From the NCBI RefSeq assembly GCF_036663835.1, contig NZ_JAXOJT010000002.1, forward strand, positions 372,001 to 436,000: a DNA stretch of 64,000 nt. Reading direction: 5' to 3'. The position numbers and the translations under genes were made by a program. Position 1 is the first letter of the stretch, and each line of letters begins with the position of its first letter. Below, piece after piece: positions 13,915 to 35,096 of the stretch. The notes beneath the pieces are model-generated. The model did not search any database and had not been told where the DNA came from. It saw only the letters and a list, made by a program, of their open reading frames with translations. The DNA is from Sphingomonas sp. LT1P40. GTDB taxonomy: Bacteria; Pseudomonadota; Alphaproteobacteria; Sphingomonadales; Sphingomonadaceae.

Positions 13915-14337
13915 ATGCGCTATTATCTCGACGCGGAGTTTAACGGCTTCGGCGGCGCGCTGATCGCACTGGCGCTGGCGCCGGAGGATGGCAGTGCGCC
14001 CTTTTACGCGGCGGTGCATTGTCCGCAGCCGACACCGTGGGTGGCGGCGCATGTATTGCCGGTGCTTCACGTGGAACAAGTCACGCATGCGGAATTGGGT
14101 CGAGCGATGAGCGCTTACCTATCGCGCGATCCCGATCCGGTGCTGATCGCCGACTGGCCCGAGGATATCGCGCATGCCGCGATGGCGCTGATCGCACGGC
14201 CCGGCTTCCGCCATCCCATCGCGCATATCCGGTTCGAGCTATGCGACCCGGCCGGGTTCGATGCGGCGCGAATGAGCGCGGTGCCGCATAATGCGCTGGA
14301 GGACGCGATCGCCTTTCGCGCGTTCATGCTCGGCTAG
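13915..14337 (+). CDS. Putative DEDDh 3'-5' exoribonuclease, Rv2179c-like
   Basis: The ATG follows the ribA TAG directly. The 140-residue protein begins MRYYLDAEFNGFGG, with the D-x-E pair of ExoI, has a plausible aspartate in IADWPEDIAHA, and ends with HNALEDAIAFRAFM, the ExoIII H-x4-D motif. This matches the short DEDDh exoribonuclease group typified by mycobacterial Rv2179c. It probably trims RNA 3' ends with two metal ions. A parS-like 16-mer lies within the gene (14063-14078). The stop shares a CTAG with the convergent HAD gene. Confidence 0.7.
   Translation: MRYYLDAEFNGFGGALIALALAPEDGSAPFYAAVHCPQPTPWVAAHVLPVLHVEQVTHAELGRAMSAYLSRDPDPVLIADWPEDIAHAAMALIARPGFRHPIAHIRFELCDPAGFDAARMSAVPHNALEDAIAFRAFMLG
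14063..14078. promoter_or_regulatory. parS-like site within the exonuclease gene
   Basis: TGCTTCACGTGGAACA differs from the consensus TGTTTCACGTGAAACA at two positions and keeps the CACGTG centre. It lies about 20 kb from the proposed origin. It is a weaker candidate than the three sites at 25-27 kb because it is not a perfect palindrome. Confidence 0.5.
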
Positions 14338-23226: not shown

Positions 23227-24147
23227 CTATATTTTCTCGCCCGTGAGCCGCTGACATATCATGTCGAGCTGATCGAGCGTCGAATAGGCCAATGTCATTG
23301 CCCCGCCCTTGTCGCCGAAGCTGATCTTGACGTTGAGGCCGAGCACATCACCGAGCTGACGTTCGAGTGCTGCAATATCGGCATTGGCGACACCGCTGAG
23401 CTTGCTCCCGCCTTCTTTTCCGGCGGCGCGCGGTTTCGACTCGCGCGCCAGCTTCTCGGTATCGCGTACCGACAGGTCACGCTCGACTACGATGCGCGCC
23501 AGCCGCTCCGGATCGGGCGCGCCGATCAGCGCGCGGGCATGCCCCATCGTCAGCAGTCCCTCGACCACGCGTTGCCGCACGGTCGGCGGCAGGTCGAGCA
23601 GCCGCAGCAGATTGGCGATATGGCTGCGCGACTTGTTGACGATGCGGGCCAGCGCCTCCTGCGTATGGCCGAACGCGCCGATCAGCTTGGCATAGGCCTC
23701 CGCCTCCTCGATCGCATTGAGGTCCTCGCGCTGGATATTCTCGATGATCGCGATTTCGAGCGTTTCGGCCTCGTCCAGGTCGCGGACGATCACCGGCACC
23801 TCGTGCAATCGCGCGCGCTGTGCGGCACGCCAGCGGCGCTCACCGGCGACGATCTGATAATCCTTGCCATGCGGGCGCACGACGATCGGCTGAATCAGCC
23901 CGCGCGCGGCGATCGACTTGGCCAGTTCCTCCAGCGCATCCTCGTCGAAATGGCGGCGCGGCTGTTCGGGATGCGGCGACATCGAGCTGACCGGAAGCAT
24001 CCGCACGCCGGACGAGGTCTCGCCCCCTGCCCCAACCGGTTCCTCTCGCTCGACATCGCCGAGCAAAGCGCTGAGCCCGCGGCCAAGGCTGGGGCGGTTC
24101 TTGCGTGTGAGTGCGGCGGGCGGAGCGGGCGTCTGTTCTTCGGTCAT
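23227..24147 (-). CDS. parB: Chromosome-partitioning protein ParB
   Basis: ParB binds parS sites near the origin, spreads as a CTP-dependent clamp and loads condensin. The 306-residue protein starts with a basic RPSLGRGLSALLGDVE tail. It has the ParB/Srx box (PHPEQPRRHF; IVAGERRWRAAQRARLHEVPVI, with GERRWRA the CTP/DNA motif), ENIQREDLNAIEEAEAY, an HTH (TQEALARIVNKSRSHIANLLRLLDLP) and a C-terminal dimer domain. The ATG overlaps the parA stop. Three parS-like sites lie 0.8-3.3 kb upstream of its start. Confidence 0.97.
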   Translation of the reverse strand: MTEEQTPAPPAALTRKNRPSLGRGLSALLGDVEREEPVGAGGETSSGVRMLPVSSMSPHPEQPRRHFDEDALEELAKSIAARGLIQPIVVRPHGKDYQIVAGERRWRAAQRARLHEVPVIVRDLDEAETLEIAIIENIQREDLNAIEEAEAYAKLIGAFGHTQEALARIVNKSRSHIANLLRLLDLPPTVRQRVVEGLLTMGHARALIGAPDPERLARIVVERDLSVRDTEKLARESKPRAAGKEGGSKLSGVANADIAALERQLGDVLGLNVKISFGDKGGAMTLAYSTLDQLDMICQRLTGEKI

Positions 24148-24923
24148 GCGGCCTTCCTGAGCTTGGGCAGGCGATCGATCACTTCGCGGGCGAGCGCGAT
24201 ATAGGCTTCGGACCCGGCACAGCGATAGTCGTAGATCAGCGCGGGCAGGCCGTGGCTGGGTGCCTCCGACAGCCGCACGTTACGCGGGATCACCGTGTCG
24301 AAAACCACCTTGCCCAGCACAGCGCGAACGTCGTCTGACACCTGATCTGTCAACCGGTTGCGGCGATCGTACATGGTGAGCACGACCCCTAGGATCGACA
24401 GGCCGGGGTTGAAGCGGCTGCGGATGCGCTCGACCGTATTGAGCAGCTGGCTCAACCCCTCCAGCGCAAAGAATTCGCATTGCAGCGGCACCAGCAACGC
24501 GTCCGACGCGACCATCGCATTGATCGTCAGCAGCCCCAGCGAGGGCGGACAATCGATCAGAATCACGTCCCAACGCGATTCGCTGCGTTCGATCGCCTTG
24601 TCGAGCCGATGCGTGCGCGAATCGAACTCGACCAGCTCGATTTCCGCGCCTGACAAATCGACCGTGGCAGGTACGATGTCGAGGCCCGGCACGCGGGTGG
24701 CGACCACCACTTCCTGAAGCGTCAGGTCGCCAACGAGAAGATCATAGGTGGAATGGGCACGCTCTGACCGGTTAATGCCCAGGCCGGTCGAGCAATTGCC
24801 CTGCGGATCGAGATCCAGGAGCAGCACGCGTTGTCCGGTAGCGGCGAGCGCGGTGCCGACATTAATTGCTGTCGTTGTTTTGCCCACCCCGCCCTTCTGA
24901 TTCGCAATGGCGATGCAGATCAT
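24144..24923 (-). CDS. parA: Chromosome-partitioning ATPase ParA
   Basis: The protein is 259 residues from the ATG at 24923, which overlaps the rsmG stop (ATGA); the longer frame is a shadow inside rsmG. It begins [21 protein letters not shown], the deviant Walker A KGGVGKTT of the MinD/ParA class, and continues with LLLDLDPQGNCSTGLG, VILIDCPPSLGLLT (Walker B region) and FDTVIPRNVRLSEAPSHG. It moves ParB-parS complexes by ATP-driven patterning on the nucleoid. It is the small chromosomal type without an N-terminal HTH. Confidence 0.97.
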   Translation of the reverse strand: MICIAIANQKGGVGKTTTAINVGTALAATGQRVLLLDLDPQGNCSTGLGINRSERAHSTYDLLVGDLTLQEVVVATRVPGLDIVPATVDLSGAEIELVEFDSRTHRLDKAIERSESRWDVILIDCPPSLGLLTINAMVASDALLVPLQCEFFALEGLSQLLNTVERIRSRFNPGLSILGVVLTMYDRRNRLTDQVSDDVRAVLGKVVFDTVIPRNVRLSEAPSHGLPALIYDYRCAGSEAYIALAREVIDRLPKLRKAA

Positions 24924-25528
24924 CTTGGGCGAACCTCTCTGGCGACGACGATGAGCGAGTCGGGAGCCGTAATGCTCGGTTCCACGTGGAACGAACCTTG
25001 CCACGCGTGGCGCGCCACTTCCACCTCCGATTCGGCGTTTCGCCCTTTTGGCAGCACCCAGACTGTTTCTCGGTCGGCGCGGTGGGCGGCCATCCGGAAG
25101 ATTTCGTCCAGCGGGGCTACGGCGCGCGCCGTAATCGCGGCGACTGGCGGTCCGATCGCGCGCTCAACTTTTGCGGTAACAACAGTCACATGGTCTAGCG
25201 CGAGTGACCTAATGACATGATCCAGAAATGCGGTGCGAAGCTTGCGCGGCTCGACCAGCTCGACCGGATCGGCACGCAAGATGGAGATCACGATGCCGGG
25301 CAGCCCGGCCCCACTACCGATATCTAGCCAAGCTCCCGTCCTCGCATGATCGAGCAGCTGCGCCGAATCGACGATATGCCGCGCCCAGATCCGCGTCAGC
25401 GTGGATGGCGCGATCAGATTTTGAGCTGCCGACGCCTCGACCAGCAAATCGACGAACGCAGCAAGCTTTGTTTCACGTGAAACATCGTAACGCTCGCGAA
25501 TCCAGTTTCGTGCTTCATCCTCGGTCAT
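24920..25528 (-). CDS. rsmG: 16S rRNA (guanine527-N7) methyltransferase RsmG
   Basis: The protein is 202 residues from the ATG at 25528, overlapping the mnmG stop; the upstream extension is mnmG shadow. It contains [23 protein letters not shown], the SAM motif [32 protein letters not shown] and [12 protein letters not shown]. It methylates G527 of 16S rRNA in the 530 loop. Two parS-like palindromes (24978-24993 and 25469-25484) are embedded in its coding sequence. It belongs to the mnmE/mnmG/rsmG/parA/parB block typical of origin regions. Confidence 0.95.
24978..24993. promoter_or_regulatory. parS site (near-consensus) in rsmG
   Basis: GGTTCCACGTGGAACG contains a perfect 14-base palindrome (GTTCCACGTGGAAC). 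It differs from the T...A outer bases of the TGTTNCACGTGNAACA consensus symmetrically. It lies in the 3' part of rsmG, about 55 bp from the parA start. Confidence 0.75.
25469..25484. promoter_or_regulatory. parS site (perfect consensus) in rsmG
   Basis: TGTTTCACGTGAAACA is identical to the canonical 16-bp parS consensus. It lies in the 5' part of rsmG, within its first 20 codons. Confidence 0.92.
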
Positions 25529-32455: not shown

Positions 32456-32911
32456 TCAAAAAGGCCGAACGACGGCCAGCACCACGATCAGCGCGACGAA
32501 GATCGCAGGGACTTCGTTGAGCATGCGCAGGCGGCGGGGTTCAATATTGCCCTGACCCACCGCCAAACGCTTGGAATAAGCAACCGCCCAACCATGATAG
32601 CCCGAGAGCAACACGACCAGCAACAGCTTGGCATGTAGCCAGCCGAGACCCGCTGCACCCTCGAACAGTCCGAGGTTGGCGGCAAGCACCAGGCCCAGAA
32701 TCCAGACGACGGCGAGTGCTGGCGTGAGGATCACGCGGCGCAGTTTCGCTTCGCGTTCAGCCCAAGCCCTCGCCTGCACCGGATCGCCCAGCGCCTCCTG
32801 ATGATGCACCAGATAGCGCGGCAGGATGAACAGCCCTGCCATCCAGAAGATCACGAAGATCAGATGGGCAGCTTTTACCCACAGATATGCCGCACCCAGA
32901 AAACCGATCAT
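32456..32911 (-). CDS. hemJ: Protoporphyrinogen IX oxidase HemJ
   Basis: The 151-residue membrane protein has four helices and begins FLGAAYLWVKAAHLIFVIFWMAGLFILPRYLVHH, the HemJ start with a conserved heme-ligand-type histidine and arginine. A mid-protein GWLHAKLLLVVLLSGYHGWAVAYSK segment carries the conserved His/Lys. HemJ oxidises protoporphyrinogen IX in the inner membrane in bacteria without HemY/HemG, the penultimate step of heme synthesis. Its ATG overlaps the hemE stop (ATGA). hemE-hemJ coupling is standard in alphaproteobacteria. Confidence 0.94.
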   Translation of the reverse strand: MIGFLGAAYLWVKAAHLIFVIFWMAGLFILPRYLVHHQEALGDPVQARAWAEREAKLRRVILTPALAVVWILGLVLAANLGLFEGAAGLGWLHAKLLLVVLLSGYHGWAVAYSKRLAVGQGNIEPRRLRMLNEVPAIFVALIVVLAVVRPF

Positions 32912-33966
32912 CTGCCACCCCGAACGAGATCGAGCAGCTGCTCGACATGGGCGATCGGCGTATCCGGCAGGATGCCATGGCCCAGATTGAAGATATGCGG
33001 ACGATCGGCCAGCGCCGCAAGCACGCGTGTCGCGGCGGCGCGCAGTTCATCACCGCCCGCGATCAGCGCCAGCGGATCGAGATTGCCCTGCACCGGCATG
33101 CCCGACGGCAGTTCGCGGTGCGCCCAGGCGGGATCGACCGTCTCGTCGAGGCCAATACCGTCAATCTCGATCTCGCGGGCATAGGCACCGAGTTTTCCGC
33201 CAGCCCCCTTGGGGAAACCGATGATCTTCGCATTCGGGCAGCGTGCGCGCAGACCCGAGACGATGGCGGCGTTGGGCGCAATCACCCAGCGCTCGAACTG
33301 TGCAGGCGAAAGCGATCCGGCCCAGCTGTCGAACAGCTGCACCGCCTCGACCCCGGCTTCGACCTGTTTCGCCAGATAATCGATCGTGAGGGTGACGATT
33401 GCGTCGATGATTGCCTGAAACGCCATTGGGTCACGATAGGCCATGCGGCGCGTTTCAGCCTGGTCGCGGCTACCCTGTCCGGCGACCATATAGGTGGCGA
33501 CCGTCCACGGGCTGCCTGCAAAGCCCAGGAACGTCGTCTCAGGCGGCAAAGCGGCGGCAACGCGGCGGACGGTGCCATAGACCGGGTCAAGCCGCTGCGG
33601 GGCCGCTGACAGCGATTCCAGCGCATGATCGACCAGCTTGGGCGCGAGCCGCGGGCCTTCACCCGTCTCGAACCACAGATTCTGGCCCAGCGCATGCGGG
33701 ATGACGAGAATGTCGGAGAACAGGATCGCACCGTCGAACCCGAAGCGGCGGATCGGCTGAAGCGTGACTTCCGCCGCCGCATCGCTGTCGTTGACCAGTT
33801 CGAGGAAGCCGCCCTTCTCTGCTCGAAGCGCGCGATATTCGGGCAGATAGCGGCCCGCCTGACGCATGAGCCATACCGGCGGGGACTCGACCCGCTGACC
33901 TGACAGCACCTTTAGCAACGGCTTGGATATGGGCGACGCGGGCGTCGAAATCGAAGGTTCGGTCAT
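32908..33966 (-). CDS. hemE: Uroporphyrinogen III decarboxylase
   Basis: HemE removes four carboxyl groups to make coproporphyrinogen III. The 352-residue protein has the signature PPVWLMRQAGRYLPEYRALRAE near residues 30-50, FGFDGAILFSDILVIPHALG, LGFAGSPWTVATYMVAGQGS and FNLGHGILPDTPIAHVEQLLDLVR near the end. Length and motifs are complete. It starts next to the proposed origin gap and points away from it, as in Caulobacter, where hemE flanks the origin. Confidence 0.96.
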   Translation of the reverse strand: MTEPSISTPASPISKPLLKVLSGQRVESPPVWLMRQAGRYLPEYRALRAEKGGFLELVNDSDAAAEVTLQPIRRFGFDGAILFSDILVIPHALGQNLWFETGEGPRLAPKLVDHALESLSAAPQRLDPVYGTVRRVAAALPPETTFLGFAGSPWTVATYMVAGQGSRDQAETRRMAYRDPMAFQAIIDAIVTLTIDYLAKQVEAGVEAVQLFDSWAGSLSPAQFERWVIAPNAAIVSGLRARCPNAKIIGFPKGAGGKLGAYAREIEIDGIGLDETVDPAWAHRELPSGMPVQGNLDPLALIAGGDELRAAATRVLAALADRPHIFNLGHGILPDTPIAHVEQLLDLVRGGR

Positions 33967-34107
33967 TGCCTACTTCTATTAGAAGATAAGATTCAAAGAG
34001 GATGTGGTTGTAGATGGAGCGTGGATCGCGGGGCTTAGGCGGTTGTGCCGATTCTGCCAACAGATTGACGGCGGCAGCATACCCCGCTCCCCACGGAGTC
34101 GCCCAAT

Positions 34108-34116
34108 TTATCCACA
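34108..34116 (+). promoter_or_regulatory. DnaA box, perfect consensus
   Basis: TTATCCACA matches the strong DnaA-box consensus exactly. It lies in the hemE-ppsR gap. Confidence 0.85.
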
Positions 34117-34160
34117 GTCTTCACAGTCTGTGCGCCGATCCGCGCCGCTGTGGAACCCGC

Positions 34161-34169
34161 TGTGGATGA
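34161..34169 (-). promoter_or_regulatory. DnaA box, one mismatch, minus strand
   Basis: TGTGGATGA is the complement of TCATCCACA, which differs from TTATCCACA at position 2. Confidence 0.6.
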
Positions 34170-34239
34170 AATGGCCGAAGCGGGGATCGATCGACCCGCT
34201 TGGCGGGGCATGAAGGTTGCGCTAGCCGTTTTGCCCATG

Positions 34240-34248
34240 TTGTCCACA
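34240..34248 (+). promoter_or_regulatory. DnaA box, one mismatch
   Basis: TTGTCCACA differs from TTATCCACA only at position 3. It is 27 bp upstream of the ppsR start. Confidence 0.65.
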
Positions 34249-34274
34249 GGTCTGTCCAGCGGGGGTTTCCGCCC

Positions 34275-35096
34275 GTGAAACTCCACCTCCACCTCCTCTC
34301 CGACTCCACCGGCGAGACGCTGGAGAATATCGCCAAGGCCGCGCTGGCGCAGTTCGACGATGTCGAGACCATCCGGCATTTCTGGCCGATGGTGCGTAGC
34401 GAAACGCACCTCGAGCGCATCCTGAACGAGATCGTGCAGAACCCTGGGCTGGTGATCTTCACGCTGGTGAATTCGACGATCCGCCGCACGCTGGAGGCGC
34501 GCTGCCGCGCAATGGGGTTGCCGGCGGTGGCCCCGCTAGACCCCGTCAACCACGCGCTGTCGAGCCTGTTGGGACAGGAGATGAAGGCCCGGCCGGGGCG
34601 GCAGCACATTTTGGACGCCGCCTATTTCGCGCGGGTCGATGCGATCCAGTTCACGATCGCGCACGACGACGGCATCGGCTGGGAGAATTGGGAGGAGGCC
34701 GATATCGTGCTCGCCGGCGTGTCGCGCACGTCGAAGACGCCGACTTCGATCTATCTGGCCAATCGCGGCTACAAGACCGCGAACATCCCGATCGTGCCGG
34801 AATCGCCGCCGCCATCGACGCTGTATGCATTGAAGAACCCGATGGTGGTCGGACTGACCACCAGCCCGGAGCGGCTGATTCAAGTGCGGCGCAACCGGTT
34901 GCTGTCGCTGAACCAGCAGGACGAGACGTCCTATATCGAACAGGACGCGGTGCAGCGCGAGGTCGCCTATGCGCGGCGCATGTTCGCCGATAATGGCTGG
35001 CCGGTGATCGATGTCACGCGCCGTTCGATTGAGGAAACGGCGGCGGCGATCATCACCATGGCGAATGACCGCGCGATGGAAGCGCGAGCGGAATGA
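34275..35096 (+). CDS. ppsR: PEP synthase / PPDK regulatory kinase-pyrophosphorylase
   Basis: The protein is 273 residues from a GTG at 34275 (KLHLHLLSDSTGETLENIAKAAL is the conserved start of the DUF299 family). It has a P-loop-like nucleotide motif in VLAGVSRTSKTPTSIYLANRGYKTANIPIV. Members phosphorylate with ADP, and dephosphorylate with phosphate, a threonine on PEP synthetase or pyruvate phosphate dikinase, switching carbon flux. It is the first gene right of the proposed origin (the RP001 position in other alphaproteobacteria). Its stop overlaps the maf-like start. Confidence 0.94.
   Translation: MKLHLHLLSDSTGETLENIAKAALAQFDDVETIRHFWPMVRSETHLERILNEIVQNPGLVIFTLVNSTIRRTLEARCRAMGLPAVAPLDPVNHALSSLLGQEMKARPGRQHILDAAYFARVDAIQFTIAHDDGIGWENWEEADIVLAGVSRTSKTPTSIYLANRGYKTANIPIVPESPPPSTLYALKNPMVVGLTTSPERLIQVRRNRLLSLNQQDETSYIEQDAVQREVAYARRMFADNGWPVIDVTRRSIEETAAAIITMANDRAMEARAE

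Follow-up and report, generated by a model that had tools for sequence, protein, structure and literature searches.

The hemE-ppsR intergenic region

The window analysed here is a stretch of 64,000 nucleotides (C2:372001-436000) from the genome of Sphingomonas sp. LT1P40, which comprises 3,468,267 bp in two contigs (C1, 2,336,855 bp; C2, 1,131,412 bp). Within it, hemE and ppsR diverge from a short intergenic gap (Table 1); we take ppsR to be the gene that carries the label COG1806. Gene calls and profile matches bore out the gene order described in an earlier reading made from the sequence only, with rho, hemJ and hemE on the minus strand and the genes from ppsR to ptsN on the plus strand. The matches of hemE, rho, ppsR (NF003742), coaE, dnaQ and mnmG scored above the NCBIfam cut-offs, and those of hemJ, maf, aroE and ptsN somewhat under them. 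On the hemE side lies parB, beside a reading frame whose listed matches, to ParA/RepA/MinD-like profiles, all score below cut-off; these matches, and its place beside parB, suggest a parA-like ATPase.

The gap contains three DnaA boxes within 141 bp, one exact and two with a single mismatch, just as the sequence-only reading had claimed. The exact box occurs seven times in the genome, as compared to ten occurrences of a reversed control pattern; it is therefore the cluster that counts, and not any single box. In a sample of 1.194 Mb (34% of the genome, gap included) we counted 83 boxes with at most one mismatch, a rate of 0.0695 per kb, at which 0.012 triples spanning 141 bp are expected genome-wide. 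The clustering of three boxes in the gap is not a matter of chance. None of the remaining six exact sites has more than one additional box within 1 kb. One further crowd of near-boxes was met in the sample, in a repeat at C1:6.5-8.0 kb, where the spacing is 141-147 bp and three never fall within 141 bp. This repeat (C1:6525-7967) carries TGATCCACA-like near-boxes and is probably part of a repetitive gene.

The gap has a GC content of 59%, against 62-66% in sampled 20-kb stretches, placing its A+T content above the genome average. The A/T-rich edge noted earlier is real: the hemE end of the gap holds the 50 bp with the highest A+T content in the window, a value reached by one of approximately 12,790 fifty-base stretches (step of 5 bases, whole window). 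This edge, about 95 bp distant from the nearest DnaA box, is a candidate unwinding element. Three GANTC sites listed by the same reading are also present, but as evidence for an origin they were dropped: 1.16 are expected by dinucleotide shuffling, and 9 of 100 shuffles reached three. The fold predicted for the gap DNA (z -1.63, with 7 of 100 shuffles equally stable) was likewise set aside, and a generic sigma-70 promoter scan and a terminator scan of the gap returned no match.

Table 1. Positions of genes and sites in the window, with the matches or conservation on which each assignment rests
Feature	Position	Strand	Remarks
hemE-ppsR intergenic gap, proposed oriC	33967-34274		308 bp, flanked by divergent hemE (-) and ppsR (+)
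hemE	32908-33966	-	TIGR01464, 392 bits, above cut-off
ppsR (COG1806/DUF299 kinase-pyrophosphorylase)	34275-35096	+	NF003742, 331 bits, above cut-off
parB	23227-24147	-	TIGR00180, 198.8 bits against a cut-off of 58.45
Putative parA-like ATPase	24144-25004	-	ParA/RepA/MinD-like matches, all those listed scoring below cut-off
parS, TGTTTCACGTGAAACA	25469-25484		No other exact copy in the genome; adjoins parB, 8.5 kb away from the gap
parS-like site	14063-14078		2 mismatches; next best in the genome; 20 kb from the proposed origin
DnaA box 1, TTATCCACA	34108-34116	+	Motif match, exact
DnaA box 2, TCATCCACA	34161-34169	-	Motif match, 1 mismatch; TGTGGA core invariant in an alignment of 15 sequences
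DnaA box 3, TTGTCCACA	34240-34248	+	Motif match, 1 mismatch; ATGTTNTCCACA in 63 of 81 gaps
A/T-rich edge, candidate for the unwinding element	33966-34015		66% A+T over 50 bp
Conserved block CAACAGATTGAC, IHF-like	34058-34069	+	GCCAACAGNTTGAC in 68 of 81 gaps; YAANNNNTTGA in 73 of 81
Promoter-like pair for hemE	34032-34060	-	TTGGCA, 17 bp, TAAGCC; TTA-N17-TGCCAA (plus strand) in 71 of 81 gaps
Promoter-like pair for ppsR	34200-34227	+	TTGGCG, 16 bp, CTAGCC; TTGG[CA]-N14-19-CTA in 62 of 81 gaps
GANTC site	33990-33994	+	Motif match; conservation at the column not visible
GANTC site	34050-34054	+	Motif match; conservation at the column not visible
Conserved GANTC (CcrM) site	34096-34100	+	Invariant in an alignment of 15 sequences; same column in at least 58 of 81 gaps (listed block types)

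Conservation of the gap in the class and among close relatives

Searched across the class, PpsR had matches in 68 of 115 genomes, and the best 30 loci, 29 of which are not from the present genome, were analysed. hemE was found beside ppsR in 27 of these 29 best-scoring loci, while the remaining two had no hemE within the 1.5-kb flank. The 27 class gaps held 61 boxes in 12,386 bp, as compared to 7 in 87,572 bp of flank; at least one box was present in 24 of them and at least two in 15, and three had none.

A closer set was formed from named genomes by taking their 80 best PpsR matches, nearly all titled Sphingomonas, which together with the window gave 81 loci; these gaps come from related species, and counts over them are not counts of independent events. 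A divergent hemE adjoined ppsR in all 80 relatives. Boxes with at most one mismatch numbered 233 (81 exact) in 26,950 bp of gap and 65 (9 exact) in 843,525 bp outside, a density in the gaps about 112-fold that of the surrounding locus DNA. Every one of the 81 gaps had at least one such box and 62 had at least two; one box was present in 19 gaps, two in 19, three in 21, and four to six in 22.

Other parts of the gap have also been kept (Table 1). The conserved block ahead of box 1 resembles an IHF site and would overlap the -35 element of a hemE promoter; the full IHF consensus is YAANNNNTTGATW, and none of the 81 gaps contains it. Two conserved promoter-like pairs, one toward each gene, are putative hemE and ppsR promoters, the latter placed just before box 3. 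A few relatives have longer gaps, of 528 bp (L003, 4473-5000), 496 bp (L010) and 489 bp (L013), and in L003 the extra length sits between the box region and ppsR. A sphingomonad-type gap also occurs in the records named Bacillus sp. 2B10 and Microvirga sp. SRT01, whose PpsR shares 82% identity with that of the window; these record names are probably wrong.

Position of the gap on the chromosome

The genome-wide polarity of KOPS was assessed with the motif GGGNAGGG, which we take to be that of E. coli and which was fixed before inspection; the sample, 34% of the genome, yielded 203 sites. On the right arm 80 were plus and 17 minus, on the left 19 were plus and 87 minus, and the sign flipped at the gap and at a dif-like site on C1, so that 167 of the 203 sampled sites agree with an origin at the former and a terminus at the latter. 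The log-likelihood of this arrangement was -94.9, while the best of 200 sign permutations over the grid of origins and termini reached -130.8. When the window was included, origins within 2 units of the best fit spanned C2 397.5-415 kb. Without the window's own sites the interval was C2 210-515 kb; its maximum, at 245-262 kb, exceeded the value at the gap by 0 to 2 units. The resolution that the genome at large provides independently is therefore about 300 kb. Within this interval, the gap is picked out by its boxes, its conservation and the nearby parS.

The dif-like site was obtained in two steps. An E. coli-like dif pattern had no match, and a looser search in the C1 stretches near the KOPS flip then gave one candidate, a 27-mer at C1:1030335-1030361, flanked on C1 by the last plus KOPS (1,028,611) and the first minus one (1,032,447); since the search was made around the flip, its location there is partly by choice. 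If the end of C2 is joined to the start of C1, an assumption that the KOPS polarity suggests, the two arms from the gap to this site measure approximately 1.76 and 1.71 Mb. A pattern modelled on the dif-like site had one match in the present genome, one in a single-contig relative (G012) and none in eight further genomes. In G012, ppsR (2,208,874) and the dif-like site (603,755) are 1.605 Mb apart in a genome of about 3.4 Mb (0.47 of the circle); the opposition of origin and dif thus rests on two genomes.

GC skew was less informative. The sequence-only reading had proposed a minimum of cumulative skew at the gap as a check; in C2 200-630 kb the minimum is at 321,948, 84 kb off the gap (at C2:406 kb), and skew was abandoned as a locator of the origin. 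Skew averages +0.018 over the right arm (positive in 20 of 30 stretches) and -0.029 over the left (negative in 21 of 30), a difference (p 0.0012) in the expected sense that was kept as weak support at the level of the arms. GC skew by itself is described as insufficient in several alphaproteobacteria (PMC1914354), and PMC3794950 describes no usable skew in Methylocystis.

Could the origin be elsewhere, for instance beside dnaA, with the gap merely a conserved neighbour? In many bacteria oriC does lie beside dnaA, and the displaced skew minimum, as well as the breadth of the KOPS flip once the window is left out, would agree with such a scenario. The single dnaA match in this genome is at C1:1528332, on the other contig than the gap. 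The sequence-only reading had itself named the neighbourhood of dnaA as the place where its proposal might fail, but no DnaA box with at most one mismatch was found in 3,480 bp around the match, and a KOPS fit with the origin at dnaA (log-likelihood -128.0) was about 33 units worse than at the gap, or 31 units when the window was left out. Moreover, parS adjoins the gap, and in Sphingomonadales dnaA is not conserved near the origin, according to PMC8116508. We therefore regard an origin outside the gap as very improbable. Least probable of all is that DnaA uses the boxes solely to regulate transcription from the two divergent promoters, of hemE and of ppsR, as might be proposed from the conserved promoter-like pairs (71 and 62 of 81 gaps) and from the position of box 3 directly downstream of the ppsR one: this would leave the polarity flip, the opposite dif-like site and the neighbouring parS unexplained, experiments cited in PMC1914354 place the Caulobacter origin in the same gap, and regulatory and origin roles can coexist.

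The box cluster, the conserved gap, the parS site 8.5 kb off, the dif-like site almost opposite and the KOPS flip together indicate that the hemE-ppsR gap is the chromosomal oriC, a conclusion to which we assign a probability of about 95%. Against it stand the facts that only one of the three boxes is exact and that 19 of the 81 gaps have a single box with at most one mismatch, as well as the class gaps devoid of boxes, the incomplete IHF consensus, the distance of the A/T-rich edge from the boxes, the displaced skew minimum, the broad KOPS interval left when the window is excluded, the assumed joining of the contigs, and the partly chosen, rarely matched dif-like site. The original proposal of a chromosome origin between hemE and ppsR is thus supported, by the gap kept in 80 of 80 relatives and by parS, the dif-like site and the KOPS flip.

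Comparison with known origins, GANTC crowding and proposed function

The same junction is known from other members of the class, and the likeness to the Caulobacter origin pointed out earlier stands, the flanking genes hemE and COG1806 being the same (PMC1914354). In Caulobacter crescentus the origin, Cori, also lies in a divergent gap with DnaA sites and an A/T-rich stretch, and parS is within 8 kb of it (PMC1914354, PMC4468827). Cori differs in its length (404 bp, as compared to 308 bp here), in its weakened G- and W-boxes (PMC4468827), in contrast to the exact best box here, and in its five CtrA sites. The CtrA motif TTAA-N7-TTAA is absent from the window's gap and was found in 2 of the 81 sphingomonad gaps; PMC4468827 reports that CtrA sites were not seen in other origins, and we take them as a Caulobacter feature that does not define the wider class. 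The origin of Rickettsia prowazekii is likewise flanked by hemE and COG1806, in an A/T-rich genome and with an A+T content of 82.55% (PMC1914354). Closer to the present organism, PMC4741004 reports that predictions (Ori-Finder/DoriC) place oriC near hemE in Sphingopyxis granuli and most Sphingomonadaceae of DoriC, where DnaA boxes are conserved and an unwinding element is proposed; Sphingopyxis is another genus, and for the present genome evidence from parS, dif and KOPS is added. The origin type is therefore already known in Caulobacter and predicted for the Sphingomonadaceae (PMC1914354, PMC4741004); the present case is real but ordinary.

On the evidence above, initiation might proceed as follows. 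DnaA-ATP would load on the three boxes, probably aided by weaker boxes and by DNA bending at the IHF-like conserved block, and would open A/T-rich DNA, most likely the edge next to hemE. Helicase would then be loaded and two forks would depart from the gap, one via hemE, hemJ and rho toward C2:1, the other via ppsR, maf and aroE to where C2 ends and from there into C1, to meet near dif at C1:1,030,335. ParB bound to parS would then segregate the new origins.

GANTC sites, few in the window's own gap, are crowded in those of its relatives. Over the 81 gaps 427 were observed against 115.1 expected by dinucleotide shuffling, a 3.7-fold excess; the count was above expectation in 80 gaps, with p at most 0.05 in 59, and reached a maximum of 12 in 317 bp. 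Sphingomonas trueperi (L032) is one example of an origin gap with 12 sites. The mean was 5.27 per gap, as compared to 1.20 (maximum 5) in 331 stretches of 310 bp taken elsewhere in these loci, none of them above 60% GC. The whole window, by contrast to the relatives' enriched origin gaps, is depleted of GANTC (176 sites against 312 expected in shuffles). Both CcrM (with a RAMA domain) and GcrA are encoded in the genome. For C. crescentus and its near relatives, PMC3973325 reports several GANTC sites in the origin; a literature search, in sources available in part, found no report of GANTC at sphingomonad origins, which is no proof of absence.

In E. coli, GATC sites are packed into oriC, much as GANTC sites are packed into the sphingomonad gaps; SeqA is not known from the class. 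One conceivable, though rather unlikely, explanation is that the Sphingomonas origin is a hub of CcrM methylation: once it has fired, its hemimethylated state would hold back a further round of initiation by way of GcrA or some other GANTC-sensing protein, SeqA being absent. A special role of GANTC is argued against by the enrichment of other motifs in the gaps (TANTA 7.1-fold, more than the 6.5-fold of GANTC, and also AGNCT 4.6-fold and TTNAA 3.1-fold), by the fact that the GANTC-richest gaps belong partly to one clade with shared positions, and by the count of three in the window's own gap. If such a hub did exist, the window's origin would be a reduced version of it, with three sites of which one is conserved, and a poor example of the crowding.

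A separate observation concerns ccrM itself. The sample held a pair of DnaA boxes at C2:211369/211393 (C2:211369-211401; L147, 1001-1033), one exact and one with a single mismatch, 24 bp apart, between an isocitrate-lyase-like gene and ccrM and approximately 120-150 bp ahead of the longest ccrM reading frame. An exact box was present at about the same place in 6 of 23 ccrM loci, that of the present genome included. Should the hub reading be true, this pair upstream of ccrM would close the loop.

The GANTC crowding is the part of the result that merits the attention of specialists. For the organism, the gap fixes position zero of the chromosome, an origin far from dnaA that was found by reading at the scale of a single window. 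For the genus, the footprint derived from the 81 sequences (three box positions, the IHF-like block, two promoter-like blocks and one GANTC site) can be used to locate oriC in Sphingomonas drafts, in which the GC skew is weak.
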